Source of the DNA: Lineus longissimus
Lineage: Eukaryota > Nemertea > Pilidiophora > Heteronemertea > Lineidae
Assembly (NCBI RefSeq): GCF_910592395.1
Contig: NC_088323.1
Span: 7,256,001 to 7,320,000, forward strand
DNA: 64,000 nucleotides
Reading direction: 5' to 3'
Shown here: positions 4,656-43,700 of the stretch, in pieces
How positions within the stretch are numbered: the first letter of the stretch is position 1
Layout: every line of letters starts with the position of its first letter
The notes under the pieces: model-generated
The model's database searches: none
Seen by the model: the letters and a program-made list of their open reading frames with translations, nothing else
Told to the model about the DNA's origin: nothing
Made by a program: the position numbers and the translations under genes

Positions 4656-5371
4656 GGTGCCTATTCATTGCAGACTATTAGGGACATCATTATTTGGAGA
4701 ATTTACTCTAAACAACATGCCTTGCAACGCGACTGATAATGCGTTACTTTAGACACTGTATAGACTTGATGAAAGAATGTCCCCATGCCTTATCCTTCCC
4801 TGTATCTCCTACATGCATTTGTCTTTCCTCGTATCATTCTAGGATGGCTTATGCACCCTAAAAATAGGCACATCAAGCACGTAGTCTATCTTGAACAACA
4901 CACCACACAACAGAATTGTGATAACTCAAGACATTGTGTAAACTGGCTGACAGAATGTCCCCTTGCCTTATCCCTGTAGTTTCCTATCAATGCCTTCATT
5001 CTTTATTTCATTCTAGCATACTGACACACTTTGCACCCTAGGTATAGAAAAGTAATTTGGAGAGTCTCTCTTAATTGGTATACAATGCAACAGTCACTCA
5101 GGATTATGCATAGACTTGGTGAAAGAAGATACCCTTGCCTTATCCCTGTAGCTTTCTATCAAATGTTTGTATCTCCTCTTGTCATTGAAGGGTGCCAACA
5201 CGCTATGCATCCTTAAGGTAAAGGGACATCATTTGCAAAATTCTCCTAAACAACATGCCACGCAATGCAGCCATATCAACCCAATATTATGCATAGACTT
5301 GGTGAAAGAATGTCCCCTTGCCTTATCCCTGTAGCTTCTACTCACTTTTGTCTTTCTTCGTATCATTCTAG
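4656..5371 (+). repeat. Tandem array of decayed cNBD-A exon copies
   Basis: Four copies (exon-like starts near 4656, 4843, 5018, 5191; spacing 173-187) precede the real exon at 5372. Each keeps part of the acceptor plus TGCACCCT, ACATCATT and AACAACATGCC-type exon blocks, with stops in frame. Confidence 0.85.
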
Positions 5372-5518
5372 GATGCCTACACGCTATGCACCCTGGGTAT
5401 AGGGACATCATTCGGAGAGTCGATCTTAAATAACACGCCAAGAAACGCAACTGTGATAACTCAGGACTACTGTGAACTGCTACGGATTGAAAGACGAGAC
5501 TTCAAGGTTTTATGGGAG
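5372..5518 (+). CDS. RAPGEF4: EPAC exon: C-terminal half of cyclic-nucleotide domain A
   Basis: 49 codons, phase 0 at both ends, acceptor CATTCTAG and donor GTAAGC. The translation reads [17 protein letters not shown], then NNTPRNAT and [16 protein letters not shown]. These match the phosphate-binding cassette and hinge region of EPAC2 cNBD-A. The cassette has FGES with the canonical glutamate and the arginine of TPRNAT. It is preceded by four decayed copies of itself (4656-5371). The earlier part of the beta-barrel is not seen in 1-5371. Confidence 0.93.
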
Positions 5519-8500
5519 GTAAGCAAAAAACTTTCTCTACGATTAACCCTCTCGCTTCGGCAGCCATTTTTGTGTCAGGGCCAGGTGCTGACGGTTGATA
5601 CCAAATATATATATATATTTTCGTTTATACCAATAATAAATAGTGGAGCTTACTTTTAGCGGAACAGTAGAAACTATTCAATAGTGTCGTCATCTATACT
5701 ATTTTGATGAAACTAATTATCCCCGAGTGCATTTGGCGTGTTTAGGGAGGGTGAGACCAAGTGTTTGTGAATTTATATTTTAGGAGGGCATGACGTGCTA
5801 TGCACGTCACATGCACGATATGTGACCATGTTTAAGACATGCTATACACATCATCCTAAACTTCTTCCGGCTTGTTCTTCTTGTGCTTGTTCTTCTGCGT
5901 TCAGAAATTTTTAGATTCTCGGTCGACAGTCAGTCCGTTTTCAAGTTCCACCACAGAGCCCCAGAGCTTTGTGGTCAGGGTGGTGTCCCTTGACCAGTAT
6001 TCCTCTCCATTCTTCATCAGGGAGCAGGTCTGAAGCCACAAAGCCTCAGAGCGTTGTGGTCAGGGTGGTGTCCCTTGACCAGTATTCCTCTCCATTCTTC
6101 ATCAGGGAGCAGGTCTGAAGCCACAAAGCCTCAGAGCTTTGTGGTCAGGGTGGTGTCCCTTGACCAATATTCCACTCCATTCTTCATCAGGGAGCAGGTC
6201 TGAAGCTACAGAGCCCCAGAGCTTTGTGGTCAGGGTGGTGTCCCTTGACCAGTATTCCTCTCCATTCTTCATCAGGGAGCAGGTCTGAAGCCACAGAGCC
6301 CCAGAGCTTTGTGGTCAGGGTGGTGTCCCTTGACCAGTATTCCTCTCCATTCTACATCAGGAGTCGAGCACGAAACATCAAACAAATGATACTCAAACCT
6401 CTGATTCTGAACTAGCATTGTACTTTTCGTATGTGCCTTCCCCCATGGACATCCACCTATAAAAACAGTTTAATTAAAACCTGCCGAAAAAAGTTCCACT
6501 ATCGAAATCCTGCCTTATCAATCGAGTAATTTCCTGTTTAGAATGAATACGAATAGATCAATCCTGAAATTAACATGCTATCTGATTGCATTACACTTTT
6601 TTTCGTCGTCTGACACTGACGTACAGACATGGATCGTTGCGGACACGTCGCTCGCAAATACGGAAAATTCAAATGAATTGTACGGTAGGCGAGACACCGT
6701 CGTAAGATTCTTTCGTTTTTGGGGGAATCAATCTGTTTTTGCAGAAAAATAAAATTGGCACATCTGTCGAAGGCGTCTTTGCCCGGAACTTCTTATGATG
6801 GCGAACACGAGCACGTTTTTTTGTGTTCTAGACTGATCACAAATATATTCTATAAGAGCGTGTGAATTTGAGTTTTAGTATTCACTCAAAGTTTTAGTAT
6901 TCACTCAGAGTTTTAGTATTCACTCAAAGACATTTCATACTTGGCTGACATTCAAATCAGTGCCAAATCTTAGCAATATTTTTAACCCGGAAATATTTGC
7001 AGCGGGACATTTGCTGGCTGGGTATACAACTCATAAATGACTTCAAAAAGTTTTTCGATTTTTCACTTACTATAATAGACTCGACTCGAATATTACAAAA
7101 CTTACTGATTGTACAGTAGTGACCTAGCAGTCATTCATCAATAAAGAATTAAGAACCACGATTAACCGCTCGTAATTCCTCGGAGACACTGCTATTGGTC
7201 ATGTTAACAGACAAAGATGAAGACCCAACATGGCCGCCGCGTGATGCGACGACCAATCTGCTCGGATCTAATTGGGTCTCCTTCGGTTGTCGGGGAGAAC
7301 ATGAGGTTGGATTATGAAGTGATGTTTGATCTCAGATAGAGGTGATTGAGAAGCTGATCATGAAGAGGTCATGGTCGGTCAGAAGAAGATAAGTCTTTAC
7401 TCTCTGTCATCGTGATAATATAGAGAGGAGCCACATAGCCTATTGGCTAACACTGCTGGCTACCACGCAATGGGGGCCAGATTCGATCCCAGGGAGAACC
7501 CAGGATTGTATTTCGTGATGAATGGGCATGGCTTTCAAGGAACGAAAATTCCTGGCTCTTCACAGTCCTTCGGATGAGACTTAAAACCGAGGTTCCTTGT
7601 ATCTGCCTGGGCAAGCAAAAGACCCCCCTGGTGAGAAACATGAGTAGCTTGCGTGGACTGAGAGAGTATCCTTAATAGAGAGGTGTCCACTAAGGGAGGT
7701 TCTACTGTATATAAGGTTGTCATGAATGACACAATGCTCAGTCAATATTGGAACTCAAAGTAAAGAGAGACACTTTAGGACGGACTGACATTGCTTGGCT
7801 CCAGTTCCCTCAATCAGCCTCGAGTGATACTGTTTTCGAACGATGACAATGCTGTGACATCAATATTGGAGACAGTAGAATATATCGAATACAGTCGGTG
7901 TTCAGTCTAATAATAAAGTTAAAGGTCTAGACATAAAAATATAGGATATTGATTCCTCAACATAATTGACATCAGCTGTATCCTATATCAATTGCCTTGT
8001 CCATTTCAGTTGCTTCATATCAAGTGAAGGGATCTATATATCCTGACACACAGCGTAATGAAAACTCTCTCTAGACATCAGACCAATGTAACAAATCATT
8101 ATTTCTTTGGTGAGTCCTTGTCTCCTTGCAGAGTAGGGATTGAGTTCATCCTCCTTGCGCAGGACTGGAACTCTATTTATCGACTCCATCATTTCGTCTC
8201 TGCTCCAATTGGTCTTTTAGGGCAACACCATTGCCATCTTCAGGGCAAGGCAGGAACTGAAAAAAAATGGTTAAATATCATGTTAGAGCTATTCTGACTT
8301 GGGAATTTTATTTTTGGGGGTCATTTTTCAACCGAAAAATGAAATATAGTAAAGGAGTGTAGCTAACATAACTCTATTGATTCAAGAAGACCTTGTCTTG
8401 GAGAAGCTACTGCAAAAGACCTTATGCAGCAATCTCTTATACTTTTTTTCTGGGGGTCTGAAGAAGGGTGGGTGTTTTGGGGTGAAACACCGCACGTGAA

Positions 8501-11500
8501 GGTGTTAAAAATGTTTTGTCTTCATTAGGAAGATCCTGCGATGAGGTAAACATCTATTCAGGTGTTTGTCTAACACAGTGCAGCTGCTGCAACTCAAACA
8601 AACGCTTCGCGTATAAATTGTTGAAAGTCTGCATGGGGTCGCCACAATCAGCAGGGTCTCCCATCTGTTCGCGATAGTCAACAGGCATCTTTGTAATTTT
8701 TTCAAAGGAAAAGACTGCTTTTGAGATAATATCCCTCCGTAGTGTTGTGACACCTTATCTTTTGTCGTTTACTGAATATGGGAATCAAGTTGGCAAATCA
8801 TGTTCGCCAGGACCATGGAAAGAGTTAAAGGCCTGCACCATTTGTTAGAAATTTGTTACTTGTAATTGCATTTGAAATTTTCCAATTATGTCAATTTCAG
8901 CATTGCTGTTGTGTTGACAGATATACAAGAGCTATACATACCAAGTTTCAGCATAGTTGCATGCATGATAACTGCACTATGGAACAGAAAAAAATGCATT
9001 TCTATTTTCCTGACCCACTCTTACACTAACAGCATAGTCCTTTAAGACGGCATAAAAATCAGCTCGAGGGCAGGGTGAGATGTCATGAATAGTGGAATAA
9101 CAAAAATCGATAGATGCATTTAAAAACAAACACATTACCCGGCAGGACCTGGCCGCTTATGGTCAATCTGCACGGGACGTTGAAACACGAAACGTCACGG
9201 GACTGGGAAGATCATAAGAGTTATTTCACTTCGGACAGGATATTAAAAGTTCACGTATGCGCCAATCAAGATCATTTTCTGATCGTTTGGCGTGGTTTGT
9301 GGATCAGTGTTGGATCTGAGCACAGGATGTTAGTTGTATGATAGGATATTATATCTGAGCATTGGATGTGTGGCAAGGCCCTCATTTAGCATTGACTGAT
9401 AGCGATATTTGAAAAGTGGACAAAGTTAAAGGACTATTGGAACTACCCTTAGTTAGTAGTTACGGTGAAAGGATGCGCAAATAGCGATTTATATCGCTGT
9501 CCTGTGCAACAAAACGCTCTGTTGTCTGTTTGATATTGGTTTCTGGACGCTGCTGTCAGCGCTTCTTGTCGCTTGTAATTATGATCACAGGTCCCAGCAA
9601 TTTCGATCAATGGTTTGGGTGCACTTTAGTGTTGGCGGTTGCGGTGGACAAAAGATATGATTATCGCACTTGGAAATGGTATTCTCCAGGGAGTATTCCT
9701 CCTCCAAGGCAGGATGAGCGCCCATCGCAGGGTTCTCATGATTCTCACTTTGTGGGGTCCTTTTCTTTCCCTGGCAGAGACCCCAGGTACAAGGAACCTC
9801 GCTTTTACATCTCATTTTAAGGGCTGTGATGAGCCAGGAATTTTAGTTTCTTGTTCGTTTCCTGTTCTTCCTGTCTTATCAAGAACCCTCTATTGGTAGG
9901 CAGCAGTGCTAACCACCAGGCTAACTGTAAGGCTATGAGGCTCCTCAGTTCCGTTGACGAAAATTGTTGGCCTTTGGGGTCCTTACGAAAAAATGCTAAA
10001 AAATCTGAAACAAACAGCTAGGCCTTATATATGGTTGACTGGGTGTCAAAAATTTTTATGTTAGGCCAACTAGGCCCTGCGGGAAAAAAAGTACAAGTGG
10101 ATCTCTTAATCATAGGTATTTTACTCTTGGGTGAATAAATAGCAAACGATCAAAAATTAAGGCCATTTTCGGCTCCTAATTATGAACTGTCCTTCAGAAT
10201 TGTTTACTTTCCACCCAACATGGAATTTATGGACAATTGAGACTAGTTTGTTTTATCATTTGAGAAGATTTGATGATAATCTGAGGTATGCTCTCTGTGG
10301 AAAAGTGGATTTGTAATACAGTTGTTTACTGGATTAGTGGATTAGAGGATCAGAGATTACGTCGACCGTTTTGAGGACGAGCTTGTGGATAGCACAGTCG
10401 TTTGACAAACGCAGTAAAAGGAAGGATAGCTATGACAGTGTTTATGACTGTTTACGCGAGGATTATGATAGGATCAGATAATTATGATAGGATCTACATG
10501 TATTACTGGATTTTATAGAATTTATTTATTCATAGTATTGATTTATTATAATTTTGGGCATCTGCAAATACTTGAAAATGTTTGATAGGTCCAGTAGACA
10601 AGAAGATGTCTTTCGCACACAACTAGGTTTCTACAAGCTCCGCCTCGATGTCAAACATAAGCCCTATTGTTGTAGCTAGACGTTTTTATTCTCCTATATC
10701 AGCGCTTGCTCTGCATTTGGAGGTGCTGTTCTCCAGTTTCCTCCCCCAAGACAGGATAAGCAACTTTGTGTGCCACTTTGGTTAAGCGGCAGTTGTGTTT
10801 ATTGGCCTAGTGGCTCTGTCTTTGACCCCATGTTGCGTCCAGTGGCAGCCACTGTTGTTTCTGACTTGGTTGGGTCCTTTCCTCGTCCTGACATCGACAC
10901 CACATTCAAGGAACCTCGATTTTACGTCTCAATCGAAGGGTTCACACCTGTGGTCGAACCTAGGCCACGCTAGCCAAGTGTTCAAGCCACTTAATCACAC
11001 CATTCCGACAAAATGGTTTCACGTCTTTTGTCCCTGGTACGTTTGGCAACTTGGGCTCTATCTGTGGGACGTTTGGCAACATTTTTATCCATTGGATGTT
11101 TGGCAGCTTGGGCTCTATCTGTTGGACATTTGGCAGCTTGGGTGTTTATCCACTGGATGTTTGGCAGCTTGGGCTCTATCTGTGGGATGTTTGGCAACTT
11201 GGGTGTTTATCCACTGGATGTTTGGCAGCTTGGGCTCTATCTGTGGGATGTTTGGCAACTTGGGTGTTTATCCACTGGATGTTTGGCAGCTTGGGCTCTA
11301 TCTGTGGGACGTTTGGCAACTTTGGTGTTTATCCACTGGATGTTTGGCAGCTTGGGCTCTCTCTGTGGGACATTTGGCAGTTTGGGTGTTTATCCACTGG
11401 ATGTTTGGCAACTTGGGCTCTATTTGTGTAACGTTTGGCAACTTGGGCTTCATCCGTGGGACGTTTGGCAAGTTGAGATTTTTCTGTCAGACAATTGGCA

Positions 11501-14500
11501 GCTTGTGTTTTAGCCGTGGAATGTTTGACAACATGGGTTTTATCCATTTGGCATTGTAGTGAAGATGCTTAGAGACATTTCTACCTTTATATAAAAAACG
11601 TATTCTCAAATATGTGGTCATTGTCCCAATCCTGGAGAATCAGATTCAAGCCATTACTGCTTGTTTACATATAAAACCACTAATGCATTCAGCTATATTG
11701 GACTTTCAATGTGTTTTTCTGTAGCACAAGGTGTGACATCACATCGATCGCACAGGGTGTCATCCGACATTACCGGAGGAGGCTCGTCAGATCAATATAT
11801 TTGATTAGCTGGCCTGAGCGCAAACATATGTTGTGTATGACAACGCGGGCAGCTAGCATAACACTGTGATTGAAGCACAAGACCACGTATTGTCCGGAGT
11901 ATTGTTTTCAATTCAAACTTTTGCGAAATTTCTTGCGGATTGTGCTCTCAGGCCTGCGCAGGGATCATATTCTTATCAATGACAGATTTGCTGAGATGTA
12001 TGACAAAACTGATGAGATTTAGACCTGACATTAGACTGAGAGACGTATTGTCTAAAAAAGTTGTTTTTGGAGCTGTTGTCTTGTTGTGTACAGGGTATGT
12101 TTGATTTGAATATGTGCCAAAAATATTTCTGGTGGATTCGTAGATGGGCTTAGCGGCTGACATATGTTGTGTGTGAGATCAGGTCATTGGTAGCTTGATC
12201 TAAGCTGTAATTGGAAGAGACTGCTGTATTGTTTTGTCATGGGTTAGGTGTCAGTCAGCTTTCGACATTATGACATTCCATCAAGGGCAAAATTTCTCAG
12301 TACATTTTTACATATAGTCCAGTGTCCAGTCGAATTTAACATAAAGTTCCATGGCATTCATTGAATTTGCTCCGTTAATTTACCTAGCACACACATCCGA
12401 CTGCCATGATGAATTAAGTCATGTTACTAGGCCAAGAAAAAACCTACTCATTAAGTCTGGTCTGTAGGTATCACTTCTGGATCATCAAAGGACACACCAT
12501 GCATTATCTATATAAGTCTGTTTCTGTACTAATTCACAAGTCATGTATGACATCGGTTCTGGATGAGTCTTTATTCGGAAACATTTCTTAATTCAGACAC
12601 TCTGAGTCTGAATTCAGACTCCAAGCCCAAATCAAGAAACTCTGGAGAGAGAGTCCAAAGTTGGAATCCTTCACTGAAAACACAAATTGGGTAGTGAAAA
12701 CATTGGATCAGGAGGTACCTCACGTTATTGATAGATAGCTGTGAATATCAATTTCAAAGTGGCGGCTTTTCATTCCCTGGCGTAATTTTTGAGAATTTAA
12801 AAAGAAGAAGTTTACAGTGCTTTTTTCTGTACATTTATTTCTGCCCGAATAGAAAATGAAGGAGTCTTTATGTAGACTCGGGAGTCCGAATTCGGGACTC
12901 ATTTAGGGAATCTTAATTCAGACTCTTGAGTCTGAAAAAGGAAACGTCTCTGAATGAAGACTCGTCCAGAACTGACATATGCCGCAGACTGTAGCAATGA
13001 CATTTGTATTCTGCAGAATGATTCTCTTCGTTTGCTATGTGCATTTCAGGATTTAATCAAGGTTTAATTAAGGCAATATCTCAGTATCGGTCGCAAAGAG
13101 AGGATCGTATCTCATGAGAGTTGTATGTGATGTGAATTCTGGACGCTGTATCTATGCTTCTTATCTCATCAGTATTCTGCATCTGCCAAAAACTTTTGGT
13201 TACATTTTGTCTCGTTTTCACAGTTTGACTGTGCTAAAGTGTTCTTGCAGTGAGGCATTTGAGGGCAGGTGGCTCATTGAGTAGAGTTTGCATTGAGGCA
13301 TTTGAGGGAAGGTGACACATTGAGCAGAGTTTGCAGTGAGGCATTTGAGGGCAAGTGAGACATTGGGCTTGGCTTCCAGTGAGGCATTTGAGGGGAGGTG
13401 ACACATTGAGCTTGGCTTCCAGTGTGGCATTTGAGGGCAGGTGACACATTGGGCTTGGCTTCCAGTGAGGCATTTGAGGGAGGGTGTCACATTGAGTAGT
13501 GTTTCCAGTGCGGCATTTGAGGGGAGGTGACACATTGAGCTTGGCTTTCAGTGAGGCATTTGAGGGAGGGTGTCACATTGAGTAGTGTTTCCAGTGCGGC
13601 ATTTGAGGGGAGGTGACACATTGAGCTTGGCTTCCAGTGTGGCATTTGAGGGCAGGTAGCTCACTGAGCAAAGTTTTTCTTAATCTAAATTGTTTTGTTT
13701 CTCCATTCCCTATTTAAACTGATACAGAAGGAACATCAACAGTGACTTTGCCTAATTAGTACCTTTGACTGATTTGACCTTTGACTCACTATGTAATGAG
13801 GGCCTACAAATTATTTGCAAGTGATTTTGGACCATATTCAATGATGAATCCACATAAACCATGGATATGACTCTGAGATCTGAGTACAATGGGACACCAA
13901 CTTATAGACATTTCAGACGAGTCGAGGAGCAATGTGATTAAAGATGACTTTTCTGAACCATAGGATACTGATATATGTGCAAAATGTTTCCCGGAAAATC
14001 TGCCGGTTACTCGCTGGTTCGTGCGAAGCCGACCATTGTCAAAGTCGGCGATGTGGAACTACAGGTGAGGTTTTCAGGCCATTTTCAACCTCACTCCCAT
14101 ACGAGATTATGTTTTGCTTTTTGCTCACAGTTTAACCCTTTCGCTGCAGGTGACGGGTATACAATGTAGCACGTCATGTACATGGGCCTATATCCCAAAT
14201 TGCCGAGAATCTCATCAGGCCTTTCAGTTTGCCGAGCTTGCCTGTCCTGGGAAAGGAATTGTTTTAATAAAATTAGAAAAACTGTGTTGTTGGGTCTTTC
14301 AACGAAATATTGTTGTGTTCATCTGTCGATAAGCATGATTTGCATCAAATAAAAAGAAAAAAGTATTGCTGGTTTGTCCTATGGAAAGCGAACAAATTGT
14401 AAAATATGCATGGATGGATTTTGTGCGGGCACCACAGGGTAACCGGCTGGTTAATTTACCTCGAAATTTAGTGCATATGATGACATATTGTTCATGTTAC

Positions 14501-17500
14501 CAGATGTACACACTGTTTGTTTAGAAAATTTACCAACGAGTGCCCATTTTGGATGTTTTTCTTGTGAGGCAGCCATTCTCCCAGGCCTCAAGGAACACTT
14601 TCCAGGGCAGCCTGCTCGGTAAGTTGGAAGGCCTGTTAAGATGCTCGGCAATCGGGGAATTCTTTCTCCAGGGTTTTTTTATGGTGCACTTTTCATCAAA
14701 AGTATAAATTTACAAGTTATCATTTCTCATAATGTTTAAGGTGAATATTTGACATATCGAACATGTCAAAACACAAAACTAGTTAGCTTATTTTGAAAAC
14801 AATGGTTACTGAGGGTTTAACTCTTTCACTATAAGGTCATTGTTTTATTAATCAAGTATGTTCAAACAAGTTGGAGACGCTTGATTGGCAAGTGTAATTA
14901 CCGTATTTTGCTGCGTATAAAACGCACCGGGGTATAAAGCGCACCCATTGAGTCCGTAGACAAAATCCAGACATAAGGCGCACCTACGTATAACACGCAG
15001 TACATTTTACACTTCTGAGATGCCCGCTGCCTATCTTTCCTTCGTAAAAGCCTCGCTTTGATGTTAAATCATGGCGGCACACGATCAGCTGATTTATCGA
15101 TTTGGATTTATCTCGCATCCACGCTCTGAATATTGCCGCTAAGGACCCTCAAAAACATTTATAGAAGTAACTGAAATGATAATGAGGATACTAATATGTA
15201 TTGCGTACAGAACAGGCGAGTTAGCATCGGTGAACTATGCAAAGTGCATCGATATTCCCCGATTTTTCTTTCGTGCAAAAATATAAAATGCGCCGACTTG
15301 GTTGCGAGCCAAAAAAGCCGTCAAAAGAAATGAGTTGATGGAAAAATCTTGTGATCATTCGGTGGCTTCCTAGGGCTAGGCCATAGATAACACGCACCTT
15401 CGTATAACGCGCACCCCCCGATTTTAGGGCTTTCATGGGTCAAAAAGCTGCGCCTTATACGCAGCAAAATACGGTAGTATAAGTCTTTCAATCAGAAACA
15501 TGTTTGATTTGTCAAAGTTTGTATTATGTCTCCTTGGTGATTTTGTGTTGTTATAGTTTTCATGGTAAATCAAAGATTGTACATGGTCATTCAGGTTTGG
15601 ACTCCAGACTGGGAACACACATATTTGGACTTCCAATCTGTATTTGTAATTGTAACTGTCAATGTATTTGCTTTCATGAAAGTTTATTGAATTAGAAGAA
15701 GTGAACAGAACCTACAGGACTCTAATTTATTTCTACAGCTAGTCTCCTTTTCCCCCATAATAGTTTCTCCGTTTCTGCGAACATTCTGACACGTTTTCCT
15801 GCCGACAATGATCATGAAAAAGTGCATCGTGTAGGTGTTAATTTAATGTTTCCACGGCCATGGGCAGAATATCACATAACGGGATTTGTGCCCATTACTG
15901 CGACTGCATTAGTTGGAAAAATATCTTCCCCTGCCGTGGGATACTGTGGGCAGTAATGGGAACTTGTAATAGTTTTGTTCAAACTAATTACTTTCTCCCG
16001 ATATAATTACAAAGACAGGTTGTACCTCAATTCTAACATATCGTAATTATTTTTCCCCGAAACACATTTATTGAAAAGTTATCGCTTCGGGGTCGGGTGG
16101 GCGTTGCATTGTGAGTGCAAGGTATGTCATATTGTTTCTCAGGACCTCATGTTAAACATTTTATTCAGGTAATTATCGTCCATGCATGAGTATTTCACCA
16201 GGTTGTGGGAGGCAAATGTACGGTGGCCCATAGAGGACATGCGTTTATTTTCAATATAATAGAAAATTTTTCTTTTTACAATGTGCTTTTTTCTCTCAAA
16301 TTACAACCGCCGTCGGATTTATTTCTCACCGCCGAAAAAATAATTTCCACCGCCGGGTAAAAAATAATAATTCCCACCACCGCCAAGGAAAATAATATCG
16401 ACCGCGGTGGAAATTAATATCCACCACGGTGGAAATAATAACCACCCGGTGTCAATAACGAATTAGCTCCCGCGGTGGATATTATTTCCACCGCGGTCGA
16501 TATTAATTTCCACCGCGGTGGTGGGAATTATTATCTTTTACCCGGCAAAAAAAAACACATTGTAAAAAAAAAATTCTATTATATTGAAAATAAACGCATG
16601 TCCTCTATGGGTCACCGTACAAATGGCCTCAAAATGCACCATTCCATATTTACGTCAACGCTGCAGTTACATATCAGTGAATTTTCGACGAAGGTTTGTT
16701 TTGAAGTCGGTGTAGACTTCAAAACAGCCTGCAGCACCATTTTGATGCAGTCTCAGGCCCAAGGCCTGAATGAACCAATAATCATTTTAATTTCAGAGCT
16801 CAGACGAAGTTTCTCAGGGCATCTCGGGTTATCTGTGAGGTTCCCAATTTTGATCATGTTTCCTTACTTTCTCGTTCCAGAGATACAAGCAGCTTATGGA
16901 AGGAGTTGTCACTCCTTTGCCCACGCTTCAGAAATCGGGTAGGTCCACTACACATGACATAACGTCCTGTACGACGTCAGATTGCAACGCAGCACTATGC
17001 ATTTTGATGTCAAAACGGCAACGTTAGATTGCAACACTACGCTACACATTATGATGTCAAAACGGCAACGTTAGATTGCAACACTGCGCTACACATTATG
17101 ATGTCAAAACGGCAACGTTAGATTGCAACACAGCGCTACGCATTATGATGTCAAAACGGCAACGTTAGATTGCAACACAGCGCTACGCATTATGATTCAA
17201 AACGGCAACGTTAGATTGCAACACAGCGCTACGCATTATGATTCAAAACGGCAACGTTAGATTGCAACACAGCGCTATGCATTATGATTCAAAACGGCAA
17301 CGTTAGATTGCAACACTGCGCTACGCATTATGATTCAAAACGGCAATGTTAGATTGCAACACAGCGCTACGCATTATGATTCAAAACGGCAACGTTAGAT
17401 TGCAACACAGCGCTACGCATTATGATTCAAAACGGCAACGTTAGATTGCAACACAGCGCTACGCATTATGATTCAAAACGGCAACGTTAGATTGCAACAC

Positions 17501-20500
17501 AGCGCTACGCATTATGATTCAAAACGGCAACGTTAGATTGCAACACAGCGCTACGCATTATGATTCAAAACGGCAACGTTAGATTGCAACACAGCGCTAC
17601 GCATTATGATTCAACACGGCAACGTTAGATTGCAACACAGCGCTACGCATTATGATTCAAAACGGCAACGTTAGATTGCAACACTGCGCTACGCATTATG
17701 ATTTAAAACGGCAACGTTAGATTGCAACACAGCGCTACGCATTATGATTCAAAACGGCAACGTTAGATTGCAACACAGCGCTACGCATTATGATTCAAAA
17801 CGGCAACGTTAGATTGCAACACAGCGCTACACATTATGATTCAAAACGGCAACGTTAGATTGCAACACTGCGCTACGCATTATGATTTAAAACGGCAACG
17901 TTAGATTGCAACACTGCGCTATACATTATGATGTCAAAACGGCAAGCATGCGCTCTCCTGGTTGGCAAAACATGTTTTTGCGAGCCATTCGATCGGCTTG
18001 ATGGAACTGGTTGAAAATTTTATTGAGTAAAGAATTCGGGCAGTTCTATCAATGCGCTTGATCCAATAGGTAAACTGACGGCCTATAATACCATCAAAAA
18101 TATATAAGCTTGACTTATAAATTTTTGATACCATGAAATGCATTTTATCAAGCAGTGTTATTTTAGTTGATTTATTTGAGAAATGTACTCTGTGAGAAAA
18201 ATACAGAGAAACCAACAGGGGGAATGGAAATTGAATATGAGAGTAAGAATAACCTTTAAAAGCCCCCTATTGTCAGAAAGCGGTACTCGGAACTAGGTAA
18301 GGTGCTGTAAGATTGCTTCACATTCTAAGTATATCAATTCTTTTTATGATTGATACCAAGGAAATTAGAAATGAAATAAATTATGACACAATGACCCAGC
18401 CTAAGCCATCTCTAGATTGCCATGTTGTCCACAGAGATGCTGCAAGGTAAAGGGAATGTCATTTTTGTCTCTCAGACATATGGGATTGCTAAACTTTAGA
18501 AAGTGTGAACTATCGACTTTTTTGGCCGCCCTTGGGACATCGGGGATTTTTAGTAATGGATGAGACAGACTTCTCCAGGGGTTTGATATCAAAGAAATAG
18601 TTTGGCTCGGCGCTATTGCTATGGTTCAGTGTGACTTGGTTTTGGATAGACAGGATTTTAGGTGATTCTTTTGTCAGTTTGAAGTGTACAGTCCAAATCA
18701 CAATTGACATCCCTTAAATCTTGTCAGTGGTGGGTCACTGAAGTGCTAACCACTGTGTAGGGGGCACAATATATGCACAACCTTCGCGAAACATAGCACG
18801 TTAATGACATGCTACTTGGCGTGTATGTTGTGCGTAACTGACGCTGAGCAGAAGGGATGTCAATTGTGACTTGGACTGTAGTTGATTCCCTAGATCTTGC
18901 CTGCAACAGCAGACAGTAACTCTTTTTCCTAAAGGAACAACGACAAATGGTTAAAAGGCAAGAAGTTGTCTTTGATCATAAACATGATAAAAGGGTTTGC
19001 TGGAACGTGTTGGATAGTATAGTAGAACCTCTCTTGGCGGACACCTCTATTAAGGACAACCTCTCTATTAAGGACACCAGTTTTAGCCCCAAAGTGGTTG
19101 TTTCCATTCAATTTGAACTCTCTAATCAGGACACCTCTCTATTAAGGACAGCACTTGTCAGTCACGAGGGTGTCCTTAATAGAGAGTTTCTGCTGTATCT
19201 GCAGTCAACTTAATTTGTCTTCATCAATCCTCTCCAATGGCAGTTTTGTGTCGCAAACTTTCATCACCTTTGATAAAACATGATATAGTCGTCCCGTTAA
19301 TTGCCTCTTAGAAGAGCATCATGGGAATTACTGTTGCATTTTGGGATACTCCATCTATCAGTCGCAGATGGTGTGACGCGAGTTGAAATTTGTTCATAAT
19401 CACTAATGTTAATGAAGAATTTTAAGACCGATTTTTTTCATGAAATGCATATACTTCATTCAAATGTCGCCATCTATACTATTAGCATGAAACTAATTAT
19501 CCCAGAGTGCGTTTGGCGTGTTTAGAGAGGGTGCGACCACGTGGACATCCTATAAACGTCACCCACTTTGTATGGGACATGTACAGTTCATGATGTGCTA
19601 TTCACGTCATCTTCAGCGAAAGGGTTAATGTTGTCATTGTGACAAGTGAAACGTTAACCATGACAAATGACACATGAATCCTATATAACATGTCGATTTC
19701 ACCATGACTAATAACACGTGAATCCTGTATATAAACCTTACATGTCGATTTCACCAATCACCATGTGTACCCTGCACGCTCGCGCAAGCGATGTTTTTCA
19801 AATGCGTTATACTTCCAGACGCTGCCAAGAAGGCAACCCAGAACTCGACCATGCCGAAGTCCACATCATCGCCTTCCAAGCTGCCCCCTGGTGGCAAGAC
19901 CCAGACAGGAAAGAATGAGTCACCCTTCAACCCTGCTGCTCCAATCACTCCAGTGAGTATTCAATCATTGTTTGCTCTTCTGAGCTTTTGTTTTAAAAAT
20001 ATTGAGTTGAGAGCCGAACATCAGTTTTTAGCTCACCTCTGGGGAGCTTATACGATACTGTGGCATCCGTCGTCATTCGTTAGTGGAGCACGTTTCGTCA
20101 CCACTAGGGCAAGATGTCTTAAACTTGGTGTGATGGTAGCTTTGGGCAATATGCCCAGAGGCATTTTTCTTTTTCGCGATATGACCTACTTTCTGGCCTC
20201 CAGGCGGCCATCTTGGAAATTGGTTTTTTGCCTTTTTGAAGGCATTGGTGATATGCTCTTTTGCTGACTGATGGCATTGGTGATATGCTCCTTTGATAAC
20301 TGATGGCAGTGGTGATATGCTCCTTTGATAACTGATGGCATTGGTGATATGCTCCTTTGATAACTGATGGCAGTGGTGATATGCTCCTTTGATAACTGAT
20401 GGCATTGGTGATATGCTCCTTTGATAACTGATGGCATTGGTGATATGCTCCTTTGATAACTGATGGCAGTGGTGATATGCTCTTTTGATAACTGGTGGCA

Positions 20501-31700: not shown

Positions 31701-34700
31701 AAGCCTGAAGAAGAATAAATTGAATTTTCTGCTTAGGTGCATTGATGGTAGCAATGTCCCTTTAATAGGCCTATCTCGTGGCCTTGACTTGCTAACTGAG
31801 GAATGAATACCCACTTGTCTTCCGTTTATCACCTGAGATGACAGATAGCTGCTAATAGCCAATATGATTTGGTATGTTTACCTGGCTGACCTGCTAACTT
31901 CATTATCACAAGGTGCCACACATCTACACCTAACAGTCGTTAGCTAGTGTTAGCATTGTGAGTAAATACTAGAGGCCATGATGTTATCAATTCCCCCCCC
32001 CCCAAAAAAAAACTGCTGAAGCTATTGAGAAGTGTTGACCTTATGATGCACATGCTAACGCAAGCTGTGTTAAAGGTCCCACCAATGGTTAGCAGTTTTT
32101 TGCCCCTCCAGCCACTTATTAGTTCACTAAAGGCTTCAACGTGAAAACACCATCTTCAGGGTAATGAAGGAATTGACACCTTCAATGCGTAAGAATCAGT
32201 AATGTGAAGTGATCCTGACTTCAGGAGATATTTTAGAGGTCGGGAGTGATGAAAATGGGGCCATTGTCCTGACTATAATGTTTAATAGGTCTAGAATGTT
32301 GTTAAAGGGACACTACACCATATCTCAATTAATTTTTCCCATTCCTTGTATCTTTCAGTTTGTCATGAGCATCAATTCATGGATAAATACCTCTTCTATC
32401 GTTTCCATGACGATGATGAAGGCATCGGCACGTTACCGACGAATGCAGATAAGAAAGAATGTGATGACGAGCTGCAGTATACGCTGTCCATGTTGGGTCA
32501 AATCGGCCCGGATGCCATGCTTAGAATGATACTCCGCAAAGCGTAAGTTACATATACCCATATAAGCTACACCATAGGTTCTCCATGTTGGGTCAAATTT
32601 GCCCGGATGCCATGCTCAGAATGATACTCCGCAAAGCGTAAGTTACATATACCCATATAAGCTACACCATAGGCTGTCCATGTTGGGTCAAATCGGCCCG
32701 GATGCCATGCTCAGAATTATTCTCCGCAAAGTGTAAGTCACATACACCTATATAAGCTGCGCCATAGGCTGTCCATGTTGGGTCAAATCGGCCCGGATGC
32801 CATGCTCAGAATGATACTCCGCAAAGCGTAAGTTACTTATACCCATATAAGCTACGCCATAGGCTATCCATGTTGGGTCAGATTTCCCCAGATGCCATGC
32901 TCAGAATGATACTCCGCAAAGCGTAAGTTACATATACCCATATAAGCTACACTATACGCTGTCCATGTTGGGTCAAATCGGCCCGGATGCCATGCTCAGA
33001 ATTATTCTCCGCAAAGTGTAAGTCACATACACCTATATAAGCTGCGCCATAGGCTGTCCATGTTGGGTCAAATCGGCCCGGATGCCATGCTCAGAATGAT
33101 ACTCCGCAAAGCGTAAGTTACTTATACCCATATAAGCTACGCCATAGGCTATCCATGTTGGGTCAGATTTGCCCAGATGCCATGCTCAGAATGATACTCC
33201 GCAAAGCGTAAGTTACATATACCCATATAAGCTACACTATACGCTGTCCATGTTGGGTCAAATCGGCCCGGATGCCATGCTCAGAATGATACTCCGCAAA
33301 GCGTAAGTTACATATACCATATAAGCTACACTATACGCTGTCTATGTTGGGTCAAATCGGCCCGGATGCCATGCTCAGAATGATACTCCGCAAAGCGTAA
33401 GTTACATATACCCATATAAGCTACACTATACGCTGTCTATGTTGGGTCAAATCGGCCCGGATGCCATGCTCAGAATGATACTCCGCAAAGCGTAAGTTAT
33501 ATATACCCATATAAGCTACACCATAGGCTGTCCATGTTGGGTCAAATCGGCCCGGATGCCATGCTCAGAATTATTCTCCGCAAAGTGTAAGTCACATACA
33601 CCTATATAAGCTGCGCCATAGGCTGTCCATGTTGGGTCAAATCGGCCCGGATGCCATGCTCAGAATGATACTCCGCAAAGCGTAAGTTACTTATACCCAT
33701 ATAAGCTACGCCATAGGCTATCCATGTTGGGTCAGATTTGCCCAGATGCCATGCTCAGAATGATACTCCGCAAAGCGTAAGTTACATATACCCATATAAG
33801 CTACACTATACACTGTTCATGTTGGGTCAAATCGGCCCGGATGCCATGCTCAGAATGATACTCCGCAAAGCGTAAGTTACATACACCCATATAAGCTACA
33901 CTATACACTGTTCATGTTGGGTCAAATCGGCCCGGATGCCATGCTCAGAATGATACTCCGCAAAGCGTAAGTTACATATACCCATATAAGCTACACTATA
34001 CGCTCTCCATGTTGGGTCAAATCGGCCCGGATGCCATGCTCAGAATGATACTCCGCAAAGTGTAAGTTACTTATACCCATATAAGCTACACCATAGGCTG
34101 TCCATGTTGGGTCAGATTTGCCCGGATGCCATGCTCAGAATGATACTCCGCAAAGCGTAAGTTACATATACCCATATAAGCTACACTATACGCTGTCCAT
34201 GTTGGGTCAAATCGGCCCGGATGCCATGCTCAGAATGATACTCCGCAAAGCGTAAGTTACATATACCCATATAAGCTACACTATACGCTGTCCATGTTGG
34301 GTCAGATTTGCCCAGATGCCATGCTCAGAATGATATTCCCCAAAGTGCAAGTTTCAAACTAAATATTAGGCCAATCATGAAGAGAATATAAATGAATGAA
34401 TGTTTTTGGGTCACCCAGTAGAATGATCTGTTTTGGAGCATAGAAGACCCCTTACAATATTTGTAGTTCTTGTTTTTGTAGTTCAACCACTCGTAAAGTT
34501 TTCAGCCCATTAATGGCCAAGGTTTCGTGTCTGTTGTTTCTGGCTATTGACTTGACCTGTCAGGTTGACCGCAATCAGTGGATCTGGTCAAGTCAACCAA
34601 AAGGAATGTTATACTGTGCATGTTTGCATGTAAATGGCACAGTTAACTCCGGTCATCTGTGGCAATGTTTTAAAGTGGAACTCCAAATCACAAAAGTGAA

Positions 34701-37700
34701 ATTTTGGAATTTTTCTTGAAAGCTTTCTATCACAAGTTTGCAACACGTCATTTAAATCTGTTATTGTTCTTCAAATCATCACGTTATTGTTGGGACTAGA
34801 AATAGGACTAACCGCTCAGCTCAGCTCAGCTACAGTCAGGCAGATTGAAATTTGCCTTCAAACGTAATCTTGTTGTTTGTTAAGGGGGTGACTGTTCGTG
34901 TAGTGGTGGTACCAGGGAATTAGAAATGCAGTTAACGATACACACAATGCCATAGTGCAGTTATTAGCAAGTTTCCGCATCGCTTACTATTACGATTACG
35001 ATTACGATTTGTGTTTGATGCCATCGATTTTTGGTGCTGCGTCATCCCCGGCGAAATCGTCGATGGTACTTTCGTCTCGTTCTTACGAGGATTCCGGCTG
35101 ATCTTCGTATTCGGAAAACGATTACATGGATTAGCGAAAAGCCTATTTTCCACGCTACATATCAAATTCAAGGTGAAATATTCATTGAAGAATACTTTAG
35201 AACATATCTGTCAAACATTGGAACTGCATTTAATGTGATCAACTGCGATTTTGATCATGTTTTAGCGCCGAGAAAAGTGCACCCAGAGCACGAGAGCAGA
35301 GTATAGGGCCTATACTACAGTACACCAAGTCGTTGGTGTGAATGCGGAAACAAAATTTCTGGTTCATGCCGGTTTTGAGAGTATTATGATTACTCGTAAT
35401 CGTAATCGTAATTGTAAGCGATGCGGAAACTCCCTATTATTACAAATTTCACATTTTTAACTAACTATGCCGTTAGTTAAAAAAGTTGAAATTTGTTCTT
35501 GAGTTTGAAAATTTCTTTAAAGTTCTTCAAAGGCCTTTAAAGTTTCTCTTTAATCAATGTATAAACAAGCAAGAACTACAACATTTTCTAAACTGTCTGG
35601 TGTTATATTGTTCGGGGATATTCTAAGTATCTTGTCTCTGTTTCAGTCCAAACGATCGCACGTTAGAAGATTTAGAATTGATCTACGATGAGCTGCTGCA
35701 CATCAAGGCTTTGTCGCATCTCTCTACGATGGTCAAACGCGAACTTGCCAACGTCATTATGTTTGAATCGCACGCAAAAGCTGACACTGTGTGTAAGTAC
35801 ACTTTTTCGACTTTTTAGAAGTCAAGGGTTGACCTAATAGGCCTCAACCATTTCGTCTAGAAATTGCAATCCTAAAGCAATTCGAACAAGATAAAGTGAA
35901 TGCCAATTTTGCGGGTAGCAGTCTGTTCTCTTGAAAACAGAGAAATGACTCCCACTCTTGAAATTGACACACACTTCGTTTTGAAAGAGTACTAATTGCT
36001 TGTGGACTTGTCGGTCTTGCCAAAATGGTGGTGCCTCCAATTTTTGAAGGATTTTCGTTTTTCCCCTCCTAAAAAGGGCCTAAACAGCAGAAATAATAAG
36101 AGCTATGGCTCAGGTCTGTGTAGAATTTTCAATTTTCGAAATCAAACAAAACAACTCATTTTAGAGGCACATTTGCAAGTCGGGGCAGTTCCAAGTTCCA
36201 CCGTTTTTTCATAAAAACTTTTTTCAGTTTTTTGCTCTGGGACTCTCGGATCCCTGGTCATGACTTTCTTTGTTTTCTTTCAGTATTCAACCAAGGCGAC
36301 GAGGGCAAGTCATGGTACATCATCCTCAAGGGCTCCGTCAACGTCGTCATCTACGGCCGGGGTGTTGTCTGCACGCTACACGAAGGTGACGACTTTGGGA
36401 AGCTGGCTCTCGTGAACGACGCGCCCCGGGCGGCCACCATCGTACTGAGGGAGGACAACTGCCACTTCCTGCGCGTCGACAAAGATGACTTCAATAGGAT
36501 TCTTAGGGTGGGTAAAAAATGTGTTGAGTGTGGCAGTTTAAAATGTCCGATTCCACTACGTGCCTTTCCCGTTGTGGTTTTGTCACGATCACAGGCTTCT
36601 TGGTCAGTTGCAGTTGCCAAGCCAATAACTTACAACAAAATTAATCCAACGCCTGTGAAAGCCGAACAGAATAAGCTTTAGCATGTAGGACTCCTGACCT
36701 TGAAACTGGGGGTTTGAGTTCCTTTGGTGAATTTCCAATTTAAAGTGCGAAAGTAGTGCATTGGATCTGCTCCTAACGGAAAGGGACCTTGCAGTTGAGC
36801 TAAGTTGTTGCTCTGCTCCTAACGGAAAGGGTCCTAATACAGTTGAACTAAGTTTTTGCTCTGCTCCTAACGAAAGGGTCATAATACAGTTGAGCTAAGT
36901 TTTTGCTCAGCTCCTTAAGGAAAGGGACCTAATTCTGTCGATTTCTTTCTAGGATGTCGAAGCAAACACGGTGCGTTTGAAGGAACACGGACAAGATGTT
37001 TTGGTGCTGGAGAAAATTCCGATGAATAAGAAAATATCCGATGGTTCTATACAGTCTCATTATAAGTGAGTAGCCCCTTATCCCCCCTCCCCCGCGACCA
37101 TCATCACCTTCACCTTCACCACACCTACTTTAACCCCTTAGCAGAAATCAGAAGAAAAATACACACACCCCCAGCCGCTTGTTAGTTCTCTAAAGGCTTC
37201 AAAGTTAAACAATACAATCGCCATCTTCAGGATGATATGGAACTGAATCATTCGATGCATAAAAAACCAATTAAGAAGTGACTCTGCCTTATGATACCCC
37301 ATCCAAGGGCAAATCATCAATAATTCATTACAAGTTACATTCACATCCCTAACTAGGGCACAACCGTAGTGGCATGCAGTAGACGCTAACAAGGGTGGGA
37401 TAAAGAAGAAGTAGAAATCACGACTTATTTATTTTTCATTGCAGATATTCAGTGATGGCGGGTACACCCGACAAGATGCTGGAGTACCTCTTGGAGACGA
37501 GGATAGAGAATAAGAGTGAGGAGACATCGGACAACTTCCTTGAGGACTTCCTACTGACTCACGTCATCTTCATGCCTTACAACCACCTCTGCCCCGCACT
37601 TATGTCACAATATCCTTTTTGGAAGTAAATTCATCGAGTAACAGCCCAACTATGGGTTTGGTTAGGGTAAAGTAGGCCTAGATGTGGACTTCCTAAATGT

Positions 37701-40700
37701 TCATGTCATCTCGTCATGCCTAACAACCACCTCTGCCCCGCACTTATGTCACAATATCCTTTTTGGAAATAAATTCATCGAGTAACAGCCCAACTATGGG
37801 TTAGGTTAGGGTAAAGTAGGCCTAGATGTGGACTTCCTAAATGTTCATGTCATCTCTTCATGCCTAACAACCACCTCTGCCCCGCACTTATGTCACAATA
37901 TCCTTTTTGGAAATAAATTCATCGAGTAACAGCCCAACTATGGGTTAGGTTAGGGTAAAGTAGGCCTAGATGTGGACTTCCTAAATGTTCATGTCATCTC
38001 GTCATGCCTAACAACCACCTCTGCCCCGCACTTATGTCACAATATCCTTTTTGGAAATAAATTCATCGAGTAACAGCCCAATTATGGGTTAGGTTAGGGT
38101 AAAGTAGGCCTAGATGTGGACTTCCTAAATGCTATGTCATCTTCATGCCTTACAACCACTTCTACTATAAGGCTGACTCTAAAGCTTGGTGTTGGATGCT
38201 ATGTCATCTTCATGCCTTACAACCACTTCTACTATAAGGCTGACTCTAAAGCTTGGTGTTGGCCAGAGACTTCACTGCAAGGCGCTCATCTGGAAGGAGG
38301 CAATTTGCCCTTGCAACGATGAAGTCACAACCAGAATGCCGGAATAAGATAGTATTTTCTGTTAACGCACCTCCTGCTCGTTTTCTTGCTAGTTTTCCTT
38401 AATGTGCACCACCTATCATGCAGAAGCAACAGCTCAGGGACCTACGTCTGATTCTGCTGACTTTTCACTTGCCAATAAACGTCGCATCATCCAGTTCGTG
38501 AAGGAGTGGTACCGTGTCATCGGAGAGGCAGCCTTCATGAGCGAGAGGACCATCCAAGCATTTCTAGAGGTACGTGGCTTTCAAGGCCTAGAACCCGAGC
38601 GGCCGGTTTCTGTGCCGCTGACAAGAGGCACATATACCCGAGCGGCCGGTTTTGGTACCAAATGGTTAGGCCCATTGCTATCAGCTAGCGTACGAGTATT
38701 AGTTCAGCCACCTACCACAGGATGTCTCTCCTATCGCTCAGCATGTTGCTGACGCCAGTCAAGCAGACAATCTTTTCATAGGGCTGCCCGGCAGGGTGCC
38801 TGGGGCTGGGAAAGAGCCGATTTCGGTAAAAACGTCAAGAAAGTGGCCACCACTCGCATTTTTACCTCCGTTTAGAGAAATGGGCGTGGGGCGTGGGGTT
38901 TACCTGCATGGACAGGAAGATGATGACCCTGCTTGCCGCCATGCACAGCCACTGGTAGTTCCACACTAAGCTTATCTATGATAATGATTTTCGTCATGTT
39001 GCGAGGCAGTTTTGGGCATGGCATTTGAATTTCAGGCAGGCCAATTGTCACACCCCTTTCTAGTACATTGTTCATTGCAGGTCAAGTATTTTTAGTTATC
39101 CTGTTTGGAGAAGTAACAGTCATCCTGGAAGCCATTATTGTACGAAAAACCAACATATCTCTAGTTGTCCCTTTAAAGATCTGAAATTCGTGACTTTAAA
39201 GAGTTTTGCTACTACACTTACCTCAGACTTTAGACGGAAGCCCGGAACTGTGGATATCGTAATCTCGCGATGCTAACATTTTATTCCGCTATTATTTGCA
39301 GGAGCTGCACAGTGCTGTGTTGGATGATATGAAACTTCATCCACCATTCTCTGAAGAGGCGTCAAACCTTGTTCGAATTATGCAACAGAAAACACGGTAT
39401 GTCTTCGTGACGTCTACAAACAATTTCTCAGACTTTGATATACTTGCTCCTGTCGTCTGGGTGTCAGTTTTGCATGGCTGAAGCTTAGCTTTCACAAAGT
39501 CTGTCTATCTTTGGCAGGGTGGTACCCATTTTAAGATCATGGGTAGAGTGTGGACCAAGTCAAGTTATGTATCTTACTTAAGGACCCATAGATTAATAAA
39601 TGGTCATACCGCAAAACGAAAGTCAAGTATACAACCTTCTGATCAGTCATTTAGGCCTACAGTCAATCTCGGTGCTCTAATTCGATGCCACTGATCCCCT
39701 CATGCCATTCACTATGAAATGAAAGCCTGGTAAAAAAACAAGTGTTTGAAACACTTTAGTTGACTGTTCTCTTTTGATTGCAGCGATCCTTCCTGTAGTC
39801 CGAAGAAAGTCGTCACAAAAGGCTCCCTGCGTCTGCGCGGCTCGAAGGATAACGTGTCAGAGGAAGAGCGGTTAAATTTCCGTCAGTCGGTCAAGCTATC
39901 TGATGAAGGTAAGCCTAAAGGTCAAGGTCATTGACATATGGATCTATAAGTATAGTGGATTCTCATGATTTCATTGAATGAGCTGTGAGTTGTATCAGTA
40001 AAGTGCTTGTAAATGGACAGTAAAGTTGAAACCATCCATTGATATTGGGTAAATGTAATCTTACGATTGGAGAACTGATGTAAAACGTGGTTTGGGATAA
40101 TCATCGAAGATTCTACCATCGGTCCACCAGTGATTCTATGAGGGGAACTTTGGCCTGTAGAAAGCCAGCCTCATTTCGGTCCGTTGTTTGGGACTAGCAC
40201 ATGCAGTTTATTGGGTGGAAGAGTTAGCATCGATTCTACCCAGCGTATTGAGCTACTGTGCATCTCCTTGCGCGAGATATCCAAGCGATGATCCTGGTGG
40301 GAAGAATCTATTTATAGGTGGCCCCACTAATCTTTTGCTGTTACTTTAAGAGTACTGGCATCTCTCTTTGAGTCAGATTGATTTCATTGCACAAAATTGA
40401 AATTCACATCACCATTGGTCTGACTTTCAGATATCTTCAAAGTGTTCTGTGCGAATCACACGTACACAACACTCAAGCTACGGATGGATGCGAGTGTGGA
40501 GCAGATCATCCAGCAGGCTGCTGAAAAGATTGGTCTCCCAGATGATAATTTGGTGCTATGTGAGGTCAAGTCTAATGGTGGTAGGTAATACCAGTCTATC
40601 TCAGATTGGTCACCCAGATGATAATTTTGTGCTATGCGAGGTCAAGTCTAATGGTGGTAGGTAATACCAGTCTATCTCAGATTGGTCTCCTAGGTGATCA

Positions 40701-43700
40701 TTTGGTGCTTTGTGAGGTCAAGTCTAATGGTGGTAGGTACCTCTATATCTGCAACGCCAGAATGCTTGACATGTGTAGTCTTTCGCCAATGACTAGAGAG
40801 TGGTTCATCAGTCCTGGTAGAAGCCCTTTGAATTTGGCCTTTGATGCATCATTTAAGGTAACTCTAAACCCTTTTCCTTTTTGGCGCCCTAAAATCAATC
40901 CATACCTCTATTAAGAGTAGGCCTATGTGTAGTGAAATCAGAAGTGGACCAATTGGATGGTTTCTGGTATAAAATTATCTAATAAAACTTTGCCTTCTGT
41001 TCCAGAGCGTATTGAGTTCAAGGGCAATGACCTTGCGGTGACCTCTGGTTTAAGCCTTAATGGTCAGTTGTTCATTTCTCCCAGGGAGCATATCGATGCA
41101 CTCGTAAGTATCAAGGATTCTGTAGATTTCATTATCTTCTTTCAAATACATGTCATCGAGCTATGAGTTGTCTGTAAAATGTTTTAAAAGAACAACAAAC
41201 TGAAGACTTTAAAGTTGAGTCAATGTTTATCCGACTTCCTTTAAAGTTGAGTCAACGTTTATCCGACTTCCTTTAAAGTTGAGTCAATGTTTATCCGACT
41301 TCCTTTAAAGTTGAGTCAATGTTTATCCGACTTCCTTTAAAGTTGAGTCAATGTTTATCCGACTTCCTTTAAAGTTGAGTCAGTGTTTATCCGACTTCCT
41401 TTAAAGTTGAGTCAATGTTTATCTGACAAAGATACTTTTAGCATTTGTTTAAGCCAGCGGCTCTTTACCATATAGACGTTTGTCAGATGGCTGAAATGAG
41501 TGACTACAGTGTGTAACCTGATCGGCAGTTTTCTGCTGAACTTGTTTTGGGGGAGTTAATTTCATAAGTTGGCAAATGTCGGAGATAAAGGCCCTGACAT
41601 CATGATAAGAGGTTCTGCCGAAACTCTGTCAAGTCTTACCTTGGCCTGGGTTCGAACCTGTGGTAACATAGTTATGCTAGTCAGCTGATCAATAAGATAA
41701 ATGAGATCTGAAGTATTGTTAGCTTTGCCTCTACTTCTGCAGGATAAGAATATATTCTTTATTTGTTTCAGACGCCACTGCCAGAACAGGATGGCCCCGC
41801 CGCGGTGATGGGTCCCTCTGTGGAGGAGATGAGCACAAAGGAGGTGGCGTATCATCTGCTTCTCTATGACTGGGAACTATTTAGGTGCTTACATGAGGTG
41901 AGTATCATGATATTTATGCAGTGATGATATTGCCATGAACGTTTTAAAAATGGATGGTCACACTGGGCATCTGTCCACGGGTGGTTGTTGGAGATGGAAG
42001 AGGGTAAGCCTCCCAGGGTAGTCAAAAAGCCTAAAGTCGTCTTAACAATGCCTTTGTGAAGTGGCTTGTTGTCTTCAAAGGGCCCCGATTGCGGCTGGAG
42101 TTAACTTGATTGAACATCATGGCCAACTTTGATTGGAACTTAAGTCACAATCTAAGTGTGAAATCTACCTGGGTTGGCGAACTCTACAAGCAATATAGCA
42201 ACAGGTTACCACGACCTAATCCGGCCTGACAGACTTTCACGGCTTCAAAGGTTTGTCGGGTCTGTAGCAGACAAGCAAATTTGTTGCTGTGACCTGCGAT
42301 TATAATTGCTGCAATGTGTGACAAAAAATCGTGTGTCTGCGGGTCATTGCTTAGTTTGTTACGGATTACGTTTGTTACGGATCGGTGCGAGCGATCATCG
42401 ATTCATCACTGTTGCTTGAGTGGCATTTCCAGAGGGGTTTTACAAACTGGTTAAAGTTCTTATGATTCTCCTTCTGAATAGTGTCTTTTCACGACGTTTT
42501 GTACTTGAAAATGGACAGGGACACTGCTGTTCGAATTATTGTGAAGAGACACTATACAGAAGGAGAACCATATAAACTTGAACCAGATTCATCACTGATT
42601 CCTCTGCAATGACCGCTGCAAGCGATTTTTATTGCATGCGATGATGGTTTCAGGTTGCAGTAATTGAAATGGCTCATTTGCGGGCTGCTAGATACACAGA
42701 GAGGGACTTTTGCATTTATCCAAGCATGTTTATCACAACACTGTCAAAAAGACTTATCAACTTTAGTAGTTAGAAAATATTGGGCAGTCAAACCGTCTTT
42801 GTGAATTCTTGATGATTTGCTGGTATTTTTTTCCAAAACCATTTGTCTCCAAATCCGAGAACACTAGAGGTCAGCTGATGTCAGCAGAGCTACATCTCTC
42901 AGTCAGTGCACTGAAGAAGTCCTTAGCGTAAGGACGAAATATTTACAAGGTAACTATTCTGCTTGTGATAAAAGAACTTTTTTCAATCTAAAACACCAAT
43001 GTGACGAACCTTTTTGGATCCATTTGTCTCCTTTCAGTACGAGTTGATATACCTTGTGTTTGGACGACACAAATTCAAGAAAATCACCACAAATCTCGAT
43101 GTCTTCCTTCGTCGATTTAATGAAGTGCAATATTGGGTTGTTACGGAAATGTGCCTTACGTCGACAGTCGCAAAGCGCGTGCAGCTTCTGAGGAAGTTCA
43201 TCAAATTGGCAGCATAGTAAGTCCTAAAGTCGGATTGCCGTAATAAACTTACCCTTGATGTCGTTGAAAAAAACCAATAACCTGCAATGTTTTTACTGTC
43301 ATACCACTGCAATGACTTATGACTTTGAAAGTTTGAGTCGATTCCCTGAGGCCGACTTTACACAGAATTAATTTTCCCAGGACTTGGTTTACATAGAAGT
43401 CAATTCCCCAATGCCGGGTTCACAGAGGAGTCAATTCCTTGTGACCGGGTTTACATAGAAGTCAATTCCCAAAGGACAGGTTTACAAGAGTTTTCAGTCT
43501 TTGCATGTACCGGTAGTTCATACAATGTGACCTCTATGTAAACTGGGCTTGATGGACCCTGTTGGGTGGAGAGACAGATATTTGAGTAGGTAGTCAGCCT
43601 GAAAATGTTATTCACTGTACAAAAGTGTATGGAATGACGCTTGACAGATAAATTCGGCCAGGAATATAGAACTCAAAATGTAAGCTACTAGTACAAGGTA

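Follow-up and report, generated by a model that had tools for sequence, protein, structure and literature searches.

Splice-site-bearing tandem repeats at five exon-intron borders of a RAPGEF4-like gene in the nemertean Lineus longissimus

The window analyzed here is a stretch of 64,000 nucleotides from Lineus longissimus, a heteronemertean (nemertean, Spiralia), taken from the forward strand of contig NC_088323.1 (positions 7,256,001 to 7,320,000). A tblastn search with the protein P0001 locates 21 coding exons of a RAPGEF4/EPAC2-like gene in the window, at 5372..47867 on the plus strand. P0001, which NCBI names 'rap guanine nucleotide exchange factor 4-like [Lineus longissimus]', is the top match in the protein database (1242 bits), and the runner-up is a mollusc protein (843 bits). 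It matches at 71% over a gapped draft of the gene and exactly over the exon model, and a Branchiostoma protein matches at 49%; an amphioxus origin of the window is rejected on these values. When the exons are joined, with borders chosen by hand, they encode residues 91-1024 of P0001 and the stop codon with zero differences. The window yielded no exon for residues 1-90.

P0001 carries Pfam families PF00027, PF00610, PF00618 and PF00617, which we take to be the cNMP-binding, DEP, REM and CDC25 domains. The proposed exon pieces also match structures of mouse EPAC2 (RAPGEF4), with a best E value of 9.8e-134. The predicted protein thus unites all four domains, as mouse EPAC2 does, and on this evidence is a RAPGEF4/EPAC2 homolog. 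A sequence-only reading of this DNA had called the gene EPAC, in agreement with these protein and structure matches.

Five of the 41 borders in the exon model lie inside tandem arrays. These are the acceptors at 5372 and 28172 and the donors at 32542, 37609 and 40580. A border was counted if the surrounding 40 bases have a local copy with at least 30 matches. The arrays are as follows, with a slash at each border.

4678..5467, plus strand: degenerate acceptor array of exon 1 (of the window), AG/GAT at 5371/5372
27597..28210, plus strand: acceptor array of exon 4, TTTCAG/ATTCC at 28171/28172
32479..34353, plus strand: donor array of exon 5, 19.7 copies, AAGC/GTAAGT at 32542/32543
37544..38163, plus strand: donor array of exon 9, U12-type AT-AC, CACA/ATATCCTTTT at 37609/37610
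40527..40739, plus strand: donor array of exon 13, 2.8 copies, GGTG/GTAGGT at 40580/40581

At all five borders it is the intron that holds the extra copies, and these include the splice site. In the same order, the borders have 3, 5, 19, 3 and 2 extra copies, whose identities were measured on 50 bases around each border. The exon 1 array has acceptor copies at 4842, 5016 and 5190 and a fragment from 4678, spaced by 172-183 bases (174-181 in the 50-base comparison); the three copies are 66-76% identical to the border, and all keep the AG. The exon 4 array has five further acceptor copies (27596, 27737, 27822, 27939 and 28056) with 72-100% identity, and CAG is kept in each; within the part delimited by Tandem Repeats Finder (TRF), 27795-28210, the unit of about 117 bases comprises 78 intronic and 39 exonic bases. 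The 95-base unit of the exon 5 array (64 exonic, 31 intronic) yields 19 extra donors with 68-98% identity, 18 of which keep GTAAGT. The exon 9 unit of 144 bases (66 exonic, 78 intronic) has three extra copies at 98% identity, and ATATCCTTTT is present in four of four copies. The exon 13 unit is 76 bases long (54 exonic, 22 intronic); its two extra copies have 98% and 70% identity, and both keep GTAGGT. With the tool's scoring, TRF calls four of these five arrays; that of exon 1 is called only under lenient scoring, as 4757-5429.

In each case, then, the repeat unit spans an exon-intron border and the copies carry the splice signal, which is the structure called a mirage in amphioxus. The claim that splice signals are intact in the array copies is borne out at these five borders. 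The units are unlike one another, so the arrays look like independent events, as had been proposed. The repeats themselves greatly exceed chance expectation; for the count of borders struck, an excess is not clear.

The sequence-only reading had listed six such borders. Five were confirmed, and the sixth, a donor at 26201, was not. The features at this position are given below.

26190..26444, plus strand: partial duplication at the donor-like site AGA/GTAAGT (26201); exon unconfirmed
23706..26201, plus strand: 832-codon open frame within EPAC intron 3

The site at 26201 scores 29 of 40 matches, below the threshold of 30. It has one further copy of 29 bases (93%) located 117 bases downstream, and two more matched blocks; the blocks are 117-136 bases apart. 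Neither TRF setting calls this duplication as an array. The open frame starts within a 61-bp array and ends at AGA/GTAAGT in phase with exon 4. By our estimate, 832 codons without a stop are unexpected by chance. By tblastn, an exon ending at 26201 is absent from P0001. Among 7993 scored candidates, none was a homolog of the frame, and Pfam gave no match to it at an E value of 0.01. Its GC contents at codon positions 1, 2 and 3 are 0.478, 0.439 and 0.411, compared with 0.527, 0.356 and 0.582 for the EPAC exons. The frame is possibly an alternative first exon or a cassette exon.

One of the confirmed arrays involves the minor spliceosome. U12 introns of the AT-AC type have a ATATCCTT donor and a TTCCTTAAY branch point shortly upstream of an AC end. 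Intron 9 begins with ATATCCTTTT at 37610 and closes with AC at 38412, borders that are forced by the exact translation, and its 3' end has a matching element.

38395..38412, plus strand: branch-point-like TTCCTTAAT and AC end of intron 9; exon 10 starts at 38413

The sequence signals of intron 9 thus follow the classical U12 AT-AC pattern. The plus strand of the window contains ATATCCTTT four times, and the minus strand lacks it. The four occurrences are the four copies in the exon 9 array, which indicates that the duplications take in minor-spliceosome borders besides ordinary ones.

The exon-proximal site at each repeated border is the one used in the exon model, and in this model these sites alone suffice to give residues 91-1024 of P0001 exactly. 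Moreover, an alignment of P0001 with annelid, amphioxus, mouse and priapulid orthologs reveals no repeat-encoded insert at the five borders; a 5-residue gap beside the first border is due to extra residues in the amphioxus sequence. Eleven decoys out of 32 extra copies were tried in place of the model's sites (three for each of exons 4, 5 and 9, and two for exon 13), and every one would introduce a premature stop. Thus, the gene seems to depend on the exon-proximal copy.

These results bear on the idea that the copies have a function. As decoy sites or mini-exons, they would offer alternative donors and acceptors, and splicing would be controlled or made more varied through them. Such a role could account for the retention of GTAAGT in 18 of 19 extra exon 5 donors and of ATATCCTTTT in all U12 copies. 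Likewise, 18 translated copies of exon 5 have no stop in the exon's frame, and most of their variation falls on third positions: within this array, 9 of 21 third-position columns are variable versus 2/21 and 4/22 for the other two positions. However, pooled exon copies of the five arrays show no coding signature: the columns that vary number 52/106, 52/107 and 59/105 at first, second and third codon positions (P 0.13). In this count the exon 1 copies are ungapped and partly shifted against one another, and the truncated final exon 5 copy is omitted (18 of 19 used). Diversity in the exon 5 array differs little between its exonic (0.067) and intronic (0.088) parts. Introns cannot be formed by 22 or 31 bp alone, and these are the lengths of the intronic parts of the exon 13 and exon 5 units, respectively. 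Given also the premature stops, a function for the copies seems quite improbable.

Another concern is that the assembler inflated or created the repeat units. There is reason for such caution, because one amphioxus mirage reportedly looked aberrantly assembled in a draft genome (PMC3087553). However, the units in Lineus longissimus have diverged. Of the 19 full units in the exon 5 array, 15 are distinct. The border copies at exons 1 and 4 show 66-92% identity, one exact copy at exon 4 excepted. An artefact would have to be invoked separately for each of five arrays that differ in their units, so we give this explanation very little credence. Over part of the exon 5 array, unit types come back every third unit. 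Recurrence of unit types at fixed steps is a usual mark of unequal exchange.

The gene as a whole is rich in minisatellites. After periods below 10 were dropped and overlapping TRF rows were merged, 28 arrays remain in 43.2 kb (0.65 per kb), and they cover 23% of the sequence. Similar values hold for the 16.1 kb downstream of the gene (10 arrays, 0.62 per kb, 25% covered); the 4.6 kb of the window upstream of the first exon has one array (0.22 per kb). Four arrays that do not contain a border begin or end 20-36 bp from a splice site.

16974..17945, plus strand: 46-bp array, 21 copies; starts 36 bp past the exon 2 donor, border excluded
36766..36933, plus strand: 48-bp array; ends 20 bp short of the exon 8 acceptor, border excluded
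44355..44746, plus strand: 134-bp array; starts 24 bp past the exon 18 donor, border excluded
45277..45468, plus strand: 15-bp array; starts 27 bp past the exon 19 donor, border excluded

The 15-bp unit at 45277-45468 recurs in opposite orientation at 48470-48743, 3 kb away; hence, some arrays may be dispersed rather than solely born in place. Stop-free stretches with similar translations at 975-1520, 7451-7672 and 9588-9842 suggest a dispersed repeat family. On the minus strand, 61421-61657 resembles a piece of the ricin-B-lectin domain of polypeptide GalNAc-transferases, below the Pfam cut-off. This is apparently the end of a neighboring gene, and it seemed too small a gene part to provide independent borders. 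A scan of the window against Rfam produced nothing at gathering scores.

The sequence-only reading held that the independence of the events implies a mechanism favoring exon-intron borders. This expectation was examined against three null models. In the first, random duplications matched in unit length are placed over the gene, excluding those that are wholly exonic or that cross more than one border. Four of 28 arrays span a border versus 1.64 expected (P 0.073), and under lenient TRF scoring 5 of 52 do so versus 2.31 expected (P 0.077). In the second, whole array intervals are placed at random, either over the gene or within the same introns. Over the whole gene, P for spanning is then 0.053-0.055 under the first TRF setting and 0.042-0.045 under the lenient one; within the same introns it is 0.23-0.24. 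In the third, borders are shifted circularly, and the 5 of 41 borders in local repeats compare with a mean of 9.2 (P 0.96 for five or more), although this null is too harsh because a border can lie in the founding copy alone.

The second null was also applied with arrays near borders included. With the first TRF setting, the arrays spanning a border or situated at most 25, 40 or 100 bp away from one number 6, 8 and 8 of 28, with P values of 0.015, 0.002 and 0.034 over the gene and of 0.11, 0.026 and 0.33 within the same introns. With lenient scoring the numbers are 7, 9 and 10 of 52, with P values of 0.041, 0.015 and 0.14 over the gene and of 0.18, 0.076 and 0.43 within introns. The eight arrays at 40 bp compare with expectations of 2.5 (gene) and 4.3 (same introns), but this cut is post hoc, having been picked after data inspection.

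A process tied to transcription or splicing, such as R-loop formation or repair at a paused polymerase, might favor borders of both spliceosome types. The 40-bp excess is in line with such a process, as are five separate borders struck in one gene, and this excess, post hoc as it is, keeps the border-favoring idea open. However, spanning alone has P values of 0.05-0.07 over the gene and 0.23 in the same introns, the border count falls short of the circular-shift mean, and the 16 kb that follow the gene have the same array density. Depending on the null, 28 arrays in 43 kb are expected to include 1.5-2.6 that span a border by chance, and four were seen. The proposition that independent arrays by themselves imply a border mechanism is therefore rejected on the spanning count, the in-intron probabilities and the equal downstream density. 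One gene cannot settle the matter of bias, since a two-fold bias fits the data and so does none. On balance, we regard a border-tied process as unlikely.

Instead, the arrays are mirages in the amphioxus sense that probably arose from random tandem duplications that happened to cross a border and were tolerated because the exon-proximal site stays put. An ordinary in-place duplication would have included one exon-intron border, and the array would later have expanded and been partly homogenized, like any minisatellite. When a duplication crosses one border, the extra copy lands in the intron with its splice site by geometry alone. Such a duplication would preserve the exon, the reading frame and the first (donor) or last (acceptor) splice site, with all extra sites becoming intronic. 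One-border duplications could therefore persist, whereas duplications within exons would alter the protein. The splicing machinery would use the exon-proximal site, probably since the shortest exon is favored under exon definition, and the remaining copies would be decoys that we infer to be neutral. Because about 23% of the gene is minisatellite, a few border-crossing cases are expected. Both donors and acceptors, and sites of both U2 and U12 type, have been struck, as random placement would permit. Several observations run against this explanation, namely the 8 of 28 arrays that span or adjoin borders (40 bp), the borderline result for spanning in the whole-gene interval null, the sparse arrays upstream of the gene and the concentration of exon 5 variation at third positions.

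Arrays of this kind have precedents. In amphioxus globin genes, tandem duplications of 5' and 3' borders were termed mirages; the same report also cites Adh3 and other loci, suggests that splicing is undisturbed and proposes intron gain from such duplications (PMC3087553). The suggestion that amphioxus Adh genes have minisatellites at their borders thus has a real basis in the Adh3 mirages. PGBD5 and troponin C are added in a second report (PMC3902484). The amphioxus mirages (Adh3, the globins BflGb6 and BflGb9, TnC and PGBD5) are of the same kind as the Lineus longissimus arrays, which differ in their nemertean host, in affecting five borders in one gene, in including a U12 AT-AC donor and in reaching 19.7 copies. 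In a potato RdRp gene, a duplication across an intron-exon border likewise carries splice signals and reportedly made a new intron (PMC4974935); the Lineus model, in contrast, shows no new intron, and the copies remain within the old one.

Ordinary intronic minisatellites in the window share the range of unit sizes and densities of the border arrays. Unlike these, the border arrays include an exon border in the repeated segment. There is also a human minisatellite whose transcript is reportedly IFI6. Judged by the title of its report, it multiplies donor sites, as the Lineus longissimus donor arrays do.

Among the matches listed in the open-licence literature, mirages by that name are confined to amphioxus genes. 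Apart from the potato gene and the human minisatellite, no mirage outside amphioxus was recognized among these matches, and none in a nemertean or at a U12 border. Thus, the structure is a known one, and what is new here is the phylum, the occurrence at several borders in one gene and the one U12 border.

It is doubtful that nemerteans resemble amphioxus in that tandem duplications arise preferentially at or beside the borders of both spliceosomes. If they do, then mirages would reflect a process common to animals and linked to transcription or splicing, and would keep supplying decoy splice sites and new introns. In either case, five mirages in one protostome gene suggest that these structures are no lancelet oddity. 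Any genome rich in minisatellites could give rise to them as a by-product. Two of the arrays, that of exon 5, where 19 further donors (18 intact) follow the true one, and the U12 array, serve as natural experiments on the choice of exon-proximal splice sites and on how tandem duplication may seed new introns.
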